Assembly: GCA_015494065.1 (NCBI GenBank)
Contig: WGCA01000011.1
Span: 1-32,484 of the forward strand
Direction: 5' to 3'
DNA length: 32,484 nt
Source of the DNA: Thermodesulfobacteriaceae bacterium
GTDB lineage: Bacteria; Desulfobacterota; Thermodesulfobacteria; Thermodesulfobacteriales; Thermodesulfatatoraceae
A program made the position numbers and the translations under genes. This document shows positions 7,705 through 9,970 of the stretch, one piece after another. Under the pieces are notes generated by a model that saw only the letters and a program-made list of their open reading frames with translations, did no database searches and was not told where the DNA came from. Each line of letters opens with the position of its first letter. Position 1 is the first letter of the stretch.

Positions 7705-8421
7705 TCATCCACGGTGGCGCCGCCGTCTTTCTCTTTTCCAGGCGGGGTCTTTTTTGCGCCCTTTGGTGAGTTTGCGGAAAGGGATGGCCTTTTCGGGGAT
7801 GACGATTTCCTGAGCAGCCCTTTCTTCTTGTGGTTTTTCTTTAGGTCTAGGGGCGTAACGGGCCCGAAAGGCCTCGTCGACCTTGGGGCCCCTGAGGGCC
7901 GGGGCAGGGATCCAGCTTGAAAGGAAGATTTTTTCAAGATAGCGTTCAAAAACCGCCCCTTCCTGCATGGCCTTCTGGGTATCCACTTCGATTATCAGGG
8001 CCCCGCGTCTTCGAGCCATACGTGCGGCCAGATCCTTTTCCGGGGTAAGGATGATCTTTTCTGCCGCCAGGCCTTCTTCGGCGACCTTGATCCAGGCCCT
8101 GGGACGCACGGGAGTAAAAAGCCAGGGCGGAGGGTGGGCTTCAAAGACGGTCTTATAAATATGTGGGTCAGCAAATTCTTTTCGGACCCCGAGGAGTTGT
8201 TCTTCTTCCAGATAAACGAACTTTTCGGGCTTAAAAATGGCAAAGAAATCTCTGATCTGCTTGGCCTTGATGTTTTTAAAACCATCGATTTCGTTTAAGG
8301 CCTTAAGCAGATCCTTTAATTTTACTAGTCCGTTTACGGGGAAGAGTCCAAATTCGTCAGGACGGCGGCCTAACACGTAATAGAGGAGTTTTTCGAGTCT
8401 TTTTGCCTCACGGTCAGTCAT
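7705..8421 (-). CDS. Divergent Tpt1/KptA-fold protein (RNA 2'-phosphotransferase family), catalytic residues altered
   Basis: This 238-residue protein follows the KptA layout. It has an N-terminal winged-helix-like part (LEKLLYYVLGRRPDEFGL, about 9-26, against the usual LSKxLRHxPxxxGL), then KFVYLEEEQLLGVRK, and an ADP-ribosyltransferase-like half: PPPWLFTPVRPRAW (98-110), IILTPEKDLAARMARRRG (123-140), ALIIEVDTQKAMQEGAVF (141-158) and SSWIPAPAL (168-176). Active KptA/Tpt1 uses an Arg-His-Arg-Arg set within LRH, YHGT, RxYVHLS and RHG. Here these read LGR, LFTP, KIILTP and RRG, so the key His and Arg residues appear lost. A Lys/Arg-rich tail (about 215-238) suggests nucleic-acid binding. The gene lies alone, divergent from rpoD. 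The fold assignment is pattern matching by eye; a non-catalytic RNA-binding role or a changed reaction are both possible. Confidence 0.72.
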   Translation of the reverse strand: MTDREAKRLEKLLYYVLGRRPDEFGLFPVNGLVKLKDLLKALNEIDGFKNIKAKQIRDFFAIFKPEKFVYLEEEQLLGVRKEFADPHIYKTVFEAHPPPWLFTPVRPRAWIKVAEEGLAAEKIILTPEKDLAARMARRRGALIIEVDTQKAMQEGAVFERYLEKIFLSSWIPAPALRGPKVDEAFRARYAPRPKEKPQEERAAQEIVIPEKAIPFRKLTKGRKKDPAWKRERRRRHRG

Positions 8422-8502
8422 AATTACCCTTGACTTTTAGCCGAGATTCACCATTTTGCAAATTAGCTTTAGAAGAGTCTGAAAAATTCTAAATTTAAAA
8501 TC

Positions 8503-8638: not shown

Positions 8639-9970
8639 GTGATAAAAAGTATGAAAAAAGGCAAAGATTTGCGGGAGAAGCTGCTGGAGGCGGGCAAAGA
8701 CGGAGCCATTACCTACGAGATGCTAAACGACCTTTTGCCCGAAGATTACGGCGATCCCAAAAAGATCGAAGAAATTTTTGATTTTCTCTACAAGAACAAC
8801 ATCGAAGTCCTTGATGAAAAACAGCTTTTTGAAAAGGAACACCCTGATTGGCCTGAGCGTTCTCCCGAGAAAAAGATCGAAGAGGTGGTAGCGCAGGAGG
8901 AGGAACCCGAGCCGGTGGCCGAGTCAGAAGAGGTCACCTCGGCCTACCTGCGCGAAATGGGGAAGTATGAACTCCTTACTCCGGAAAGGGAGGAAGAACT
9001 TTCCAAGATCATTCGGGGTGGTTTCCAGTTCATCGTCAACGCCATTATGGAACACCCTTCCACCCTTCCTGAGATGGAAAAGCTGCGTGAGACCATAAGG
9101 CTCTGGAAAAAGCGTGACCCGGGCCTTAAACCCAAAAAGAGCCATCTAAACATCATGTTGCGCACGGTACGCGCCATTCACGAGAAATATCCGGAAGACG
9201 AGTCCATTGCCGAACTCTTGCGGCAGATCGAGGAGCGGGCGGCAGAAGTGGAGAAGGCCAAGGACGAGATGGTAAAGGCCAATTTGCGTCTGGTGGTCTC
9301 TATCGCCAAACGCTACATGGGGCAGGGGCTTTCCCTGGCTGATCTCATTCAGGAAGGGAACCTGGGTCTCATGCGGGCGGTCTTCCGCTTTGACTACAGC
9401 AAGGGCAATAAGTTCAGCACTTACGCTTCCTGGTGGATCAGGCAGGCCATTACCCGGGCCATTCTGGACAAAACGCGCACCATCAGGTTGCCGGTACACT
9501 TCCTGGAGTTGCGCAGCCAGTTTTTCAAGGCCTTTTACGAGCTGGTGAAAGAGCTGGGTCGTGAGCCCACACCGGCTGAGATCTCTGAACGTACGGGGAT
9601 CCCGCAGGAAAAGATACTGGCCATCTTTGAGGCCTCCAAAGAGCCGGTATCCCTTGAGCTCCCCATCGGGGACGAAGACAGCACCCTTGGGGATTTTATC
9701 GAAAACAAAGAAAGCCCATCTCCTTACGAACAGGTCAAGGATAAGGATCTTTCAGAGAAAGTGCGCAATCTCCTCTCCACCCTTTCTCCCCGGGAAGAGA
9801 AAATCATCCGGCTCCGTTTCGGTATCGGGGAGGAAAACGAATATACCCTGGAGGAGATCGGCAAGCGCTTCGGGGTGTCCCGGGAACGTATCCGTCAGAT
9901 AGAAAAGAAGGCCCTTTCGCGGCTGCGGCAAATGACGAAAAAAGACCACTTTAAGTATTATTCAGACTAA
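8639..9970 (+). CDS. rpoD: Primary RNA polymerase sigma factor (sigma-70/RpoD)
   Basis: The main sigma factor, 443 residues. Region 1.1 is a short acidic/helical N-terminus (about 1-95). Region 1.2 is SAYLREMGKYELLTPEREEE at 101-120. The insert between 1.2 and 2.1 is short compared with E. coli. Regions 2.1-2.4 run from about 211 (KANLRLVVSIAKRYMGQGL) through DLIQEGNLGLMRAVFRFDY and FSTYASWWIRQAITRAI to RTIRLPVH. Region 3 contains GREPTPAEISERTGI, and region 4.2 ends the protein (EEIGKRFGVSRERIRQIEKK). The GTG at 8639 is preceded by GGAAGGGG; an ATG at 8651 with AGGTGA in front is an equally good start and would remove four residues. The gene is followed at once by a strong terminator, so it is largely monocistronic. 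Confidence 0.97.
   Translation: MIKSMKKGKDLREKLLEAGKDGAITYEMLNDLLPEDYGDPKKIEEIFDFLYKNNIEVLDEKQLFEKEHPDWPERSPEKKIEEVVAQEEEPEPVAESEEVTSAYLREMGKYELLTPEREEELSKIIRGGFQFIVNAIMEHPSTLPEMEKLRETIRLWKKRDPGLKPKKSHLNIMLRTVRAIHEKYPEDESIAELLRQIEERAAEVEKAKDEMVKANLRLVVSIAKRYMGQGLSLADLIQEGNLGLMRAVFRFDYSKGNKFSTYASWWIRQAITRAILDKTRTIRLPVHFLELRSQFFKAFYELVKELGREPTPAEISERTGIPQEKILAIFEASKEPVSLELPIGDEDSTLGDFIENKESPSPYEQVKDKDLSEKVRNLLSTLSPREEKIIRLRFGIGEENEYTLEEIGKRFGVSRERIRQIEKKALSRLRQMTKKDHFKYYSD

Follow-up and report, generated by a model that had tools for sequence, protein, structure and literature searches.

A basic-tailed KptA homologue with a replaced catalytic tetrad, a candidate non-catalytic RNA-binding protein of Desulfobacterota

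What keeps a KptA-like gene in a genome once the residues that Tpt1/KptA enzymes use for catalysis have been replaced? The question is raised by one gene in the window, the 32,484-nucleotide stretch of Thermodesulfobacteriaceae DNA analyzed here, which belongs to a genome of ~2.03 Mb in 67 contigs. The role of KptA/Tpt1 in bacteria is itself an open question, as E. coli and others have no yeast-like ligase to make the substrate (PMC6333775). Our analysis favors, with moderate confidence, a KptA-derived pseudoenzyme kept as a non-catalytic RNA-binding protein in Desulfobacterota. The 238-amino acid reading frame was present as first described and begins with ATG. The gene, its ribosome-binding site, its two predicted lobes, and its divergent neighbor are as follows.

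7705..8421, minus strand: KptA-derived, tetrad-broken, basic-tailed protein, 238 amino acids plus stop
8427..8431, minus strand: Shine-Dalgarno-like AAGGG, 5 nt 5' of the ATG
8146..8421, minus strand: N-terminal "RNA lobe", a winged helix, residues 1-92, Lys11 kept (AlphaFold model, Foldseek to Tpt1, alignment to CthTpt1)
7891..8145, minus strand: C-terminal ADP-ribosyltransferase-like "NAD lobe", residues 93-177 (AlphaFold model, Foldseek, family profile)
8639..9970, plus strand: rpoD-like sigma factor, divergent neighbor

Homology to KptA was faint in the single sequence and strong in the family. Alone, the window protein scored 15.2 bits against Pfam PF01885, under the cut-off of 26, and fell below the cut-offs of two NCBIfam KptA models (PRK00819 equivalogs; 35.1 bits, E 1.2e-8, vs 239, and 29.6 bits vs 231). 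It did match the Clostridium thermocellum Tpt1 structure (CthTpt1, PDB 6e3a; E 5e-4). The PF01885 search suggested in the initial annotation therefore fails for this protein by itself but succeeds for its relatives, 53/56 of which matched at E ≤ 0.01. A profile of 56 relatives matched all listed bacterial and archaeal Tpt1 structures, with a best E of 1.5e-37 (6ede/6e3a). The AlphaFold model of the window protein (mean pLDDT 92.5, pTM 0.78) combines a winged-helix lobe with an ART-type lobe, and every significant Foldseek match to it in the PDB was a Tpt1/KptA (E 5e-12). The block order and fold first read from the letters are thus real, and so is the gene, a true homologue of KptA/Tpt1. Structural agreement held for the lobes but not for their arrangement: best matches of the window model and of a Desulfobacterales relative (mbb6a12b33709, m74bf14dd7315) reached a TM, taken by target, of 0.46-0.54, with an rmsd of ~11 Å to Tpt1. 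In both models each lobe matches Tpt1 singly and the relative placement differs, which may be a modelling artefact.

The catalytic residues were located by alignment to CthTpt1, where the Arg18-His19-Arg68-Arg121 tetrad is described as essential (PMC6333775).

8359..8373, minus strand: L17-G18-R19-R20-P21 at the L-R18-H19-x-P position, both catalytic residues replaced
8107..8115, minus strand: T103-P104-V105 at the NAD-binding HGT position (H101-G102-T103 in CthTpt1), replaced
8044..8067, minus strand: A119-T126 (AAEKIILT) at the GRQYVHLS position, shortened, Arg121 absent
8002..8013, minus strand: R137-R138-R139-G140, equivalents of Arg139/Arg140 of the NAD diphosphate cage kept (alignment; roles from PMC6333775)

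The tetrad reads Gly18, Arg19, Lys, and a gap in the window protein, and no shift of the alignment restores the first pair because L17 and P21 flank it. The claim that the catalytic signature had been replaced was therefore sound, with the HGT motif reading TPV. 2'-phosphotransferase activity would not be expected of this protein, the tetrad being essential in Tpt1. An enzyme that is still active, with neighboring residues or the tail standing in for the tetrad, is very unlikely. Some close relatives do keep an arginine at the Arg68 position, R19 and R20 adjoin the lost Arg18, and in Runella Tpt1 step 2 became only threefold slower when His17 was substituted (PMC6333775). When the Arg18 equivalent was changed to alanine, however, both steps slowed several-hundredfold (PMC6333775); HGT and Arg121 are also gone, and the family as a whole does not keep the Arg68 position. 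Judged from the residues, some residual or migrated catalysis may persist.

The substrate-facing surface was not lost as a whole. In CthTpt1, H101 and T103 hold the adenosine of NAD, and Arg139 and Arg140 hold the ADP-ribose diphosphate (PMC6333775). From the R121/R139/R140 cage the window protein has the latter two, as R138 and R139, without R121. The change from RHG to RRG had been counted as a further loss; CthTpt1 itself reads R139-R140-D here, so the window protein has both arginines and that part of the reading is withdrawn. Across a non-redundant alignment of 154 sequences that includes CthTpt1 and 151 tailed proteins, Arg139 was kept in 136, Arg140 was Arg or Lys in 98, and the Lys11 position was Lys or Arg in 150. 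Some nucleotide or ADP-ribose binding may therefore remain, given that Arg139 and often Arg140 are two of the three NAD-diphosphate arginines. A sensor that lacks 2'-phosphate chemistry, uses these two arginines to bind a phosphate ligand (NAD+, ADP-ribose, or another), and signals through the tail would account for their retention. We regard such a sensor as unlikely: the two residues that bind adenosine, His101 and Thr103, are gone, as is the third residue of the cage (Arg121), and the kept arginines could equally contact RNA phosphates. Of the initial proposal of RNA or NAD binding, RNA binding is left as a plausible role.

A protein search found relatives in 36/60 nearby genomes and a profile search found the family in 135/395 Desulfobacterota genomes (96/251 genera). 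PF01885, which is blind to the tail, matched 81/395 genomes of the phylum with one match each. Its scores were bimodal, with mostly intact motifs at 93-135 bits and the rest at ≤71 bits. The source genome contained no PF01885 protein over threshold, and a plasmid search with the window protein returned no match. A GTDB-wide scan with the pattern Lx[RYH]RPDEFGL yielded 195 relatives, and the 80 of these that were retained are titled Thermodesulfobacteriota, Desulfobacterales, Deltaproteobacteria, or similar; the pattern columns are invariant by selection among loci so fetched (alignments A3 and A4) and were not counted as evidence. With one match per genome and no other PF01885 protein, this is the lineage's own KptA and not an extra copy, and we rejected the view that it is a paralogue of an active KptA, as first suggested, since neither the genome nor any sampled relative showed a second PF01885 gene. 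The family is the chromosomal, single-copy KptA-like gene of the phylum. It is not universally essential, given several Thermodesulfobacteriales genomes in which it was not found. Separately, one genome of the same order (locus L031, genome G039) carried a tail-less, tetrad-intact KptA fragment adjoining a helicase reading frame that looked Cas3-like by eye; this fragment is probably a separate acquisition.

The history of the tetrad was reconstructed from the 154-sequence alignment, with the tree computed without the catalytic columns. An intact RHRR was present in 15 sequences (CthTpt1, two tail-less KptAs, and 12 tailed proteins), and the remaining 139 were broken in many different ways. 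Tailed proteins grouped as one clade, apart from tail-less KptA (UFBoot 98, SH-aLRT 99), with outgroups that are intact and tail-less. The intact tailed proteins were basal within the tailed clade, and the window protein belonged to its large broken crown. The best tree required five state changes and the starred branches force at least three. We read these as losses, since the outgroups have the tetrad and its recovery once lost would be implausible; loss of the tetrad was repeated after the tail was gained. Breakage is also visible at short range. An AHEY tetrad (G169, L172) is nested in an otherwise intact family, beside the members of f40, and the Arg18 position reads Leu, Gln, and Val in three close f13 genomes (L058, L059, L061). 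A sequencing error or frameshift was rejected, the broken state being inherited and frames being open across relatives: intact tailed homologues, which the initial annotation had named as a sign of such error, do exist in other families, but the broken sequences come from many lineages.

The same alignment bears on whether the replacements form a new active site. The motifs are replaced throughout the relatives, but with no one fixed residue set. Residues in place of the tetrad differ widely by lineage (GRPH, GRSQ, AYDP, SHAD, YHPR, and others), which is unlike a shared new active site. That residues newly placed in the cleft or close to it run a different ADP-ribosyl or phosphoryl reaction is accordingly quite improbable, even though the fold is retained and the broken group has gained conservation at a few positions, for example Gly where CthTpt1 has Asn165.

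Nor does the gene appear to be decaying. Between the window gene and its nearest named relative found, the 95%-identical copy in Thermodesulfatator atlanticus assembly HyVt-533, dN/dS was 0.024/0.193 overall (Nei-Gojobori), or ~0.12, and 0.029/0.150 in the tail, or ~0.19. By weight, 89% of the broken set has Arg at the Arg77 position, which is Gly in the window protein. The protein is under purifying selection. A decaying gene without function would fit its absence from the search results of several genomes in the same order and the faster divergence of broken lineages. Such decay has been largely refuted already and is barely credible: the frame was open in nearly all genomes of a sample spanning 96 genera, the tail was in every member, and conserved positions were still common to broken sequences across deep divergence.

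The added basic tail noted at the outset was confirmed and is a family trait.

7708..7890, minus strand: basic C-terminal tail, residues 178-238, net charge +12, without counterpart in KptAs of known bacterial or archaeal structure
7708..7776, minus strand: conserved tail end RKLTKGRKKDPAWKRERRRRHRG with Trp228-Lys229 and a predicted helix at 227-237 (alignments, AlphaFold model)

Family tails are basic and ~50-90 amino acids long, and other KptAs have no such tail. At least 52 residues followed the domain in 151/151 tailed proteins, with a mean tail charge of +11.5 in intact and +11.4 in broken members. Trp and Lys near the tail end were found in 59 and 62 of 68 sequences, a subset chosen without the peptide pattern. 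Phage KptAs, among the matches listed, spanned residues 5-178 of the tailed query, and 0/69 records covered 80% of it.

Genomic context did not supply a pathway. The window also encodes an Rnl3/Pab1020-type RNA ligase (PF09414, PF18330; 22201-23373, minus strand) adjoining RtcA (PF01137; 23397-24440, minus strand), and a link of the KptA-like protein to these RNA-end enzymes had been raised. The ligase was in nearly all Thermodesulfobacteriales genomes searched, whether or not the KptA-like gene was found there; in the rest of the phylum, the genomes searched had no ligase, even those that carry the KptA-like gene. The two genes lie ~20-540 kb apart in complete genomes. We rejected a functional link, as the ligase tracks the order and not the KptA-like gene. 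The KptA-like gene of Thermodesulfobacteriales is usually transcribed divergently from rpoD, a pairing that recurs in Thermodesulfatator, Thermosulfurimonas, and f3/g5-g6 genomes. Many Desulfobacterales have it divergent from hemL with tRNA-Lys(CTT) downstream, and other neighbors by lineage, most named by eye, include a poly(A) polymerase/CCA-type gene, an HDOD-like protein, and rpsF. A function based on an operon was likewise rejected, since neighbors vary by lineage and no pathway follows. A same-strand tRNA-Lys(CTT) lay 56-490 nt downstream in 33/66 named loci with enough sequence (L085, L101, L109, L139, and 29 others, all of the Desulfobacterales type). By eye, most of the gaps inspected contain a TTGACA-type promoter that belongs to the tRNA gene itself, and inheritance alone may explain the block. 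A link to defence was dropped as well, with no family among the PADLOC anti-phage profiles matching the window protein at E ≤ 1. Elsewhere in the window are a HEPN-domain protein (PF05168; 11134-11547, plus strand), directly after an elongation-factor-P-like gene, and a 1131-amino acid SMC-type ATPase (PF02463; 13251-16646, plus strand).

The reading we favor, a non-catalytic RNA-binding protein, runs as follows. An ancestral intact KptA of the phylum first gained a Lys/Arg-rich tail of ~60 amino acids ending in a K-rich/W-K/R-rich stretch. In several descendant lineages, Thermodesulfatator among them, both the Arg-His-Arg-Arg tetrad and the HGT motif then disappeared, and neither 2'-phosphate removal from RNA nor ADP-ribosylation of RNA ends would still be expected of their proteins. 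Purifying selection continued to act on the two-lobe fold, on the tail, and on some of the basic surface that faces the substrate (Lys11, Arg139). The selected function would be non-catalytic binding of structured RNA (tRNA, rRNA, or the ribosome), with the La-like winged helix and the tail forming the grip. We infer RNA as the ligand, tRNA or the ribosome as the target, and the lack of activity; the basic tail could instead bind DNA, polyphosphate, or a membrane. A broader version, in which the tailed enzyme already had a second role in tRNA or ribosome binding that was kept after repeated catalytic loss, making this a phylum-wide RNA-binding factor, is a tentative suggestion that we put at somewhat under even odds.

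Annotation is affected as well, since naming a KptA by fold or by a weak match to a profile can give the name RNA 2'-phosphotransferase to an enzyme that is probably dead. A search of the literature for a KptA pseudoenzyme, or for KptA in Desulfobacterota, returned no relevant report. That the protein was retained through at least three separate catalytic losses points to a non-catalytic role strong enough for selection to act on it alone; relatives with both tail and tetrad are natural controls for such a role. With Tpt1/KptA (PF01885; CthTpt1 6e3a, TkoKptA 9ld4, PhoTpt1 8tfi) the window protein has in common the two-lobe fold, block order, Lys11, Arg139, and core structural residues; it differs in lacking the tetrad and HGT, in adding the ~60-amino acid basic tail, and in scoring under the family's curated cut-offs. 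The tailed, tetrad-intact KptAs of other Desulfobacterota (G044, G050, G077, G218, G244; L032, L033, L071, L060, L068) have the same kind of tail, belong to the same clade, and are likewise a single chromosomal copy, but they keep RHRR and H-G/A-T and are a minority of the family. From their motifs they are probably active enzymes. Similarity to La was reported for CthTpt1 (PMC6333775), and La/LARP winged helices gave a weak fold match to the RNA lobe in our models, with no significant E-value (0.38 to 1s29 for the window model, 0.37 to LARP1 7sot for the Desulfobacterales relative); only the first lobe is comparable. With pseudoenzymes of the ADP-ribosyltransferase fold, the family shares the loss of a catalytic motif from a fold that has been kept.
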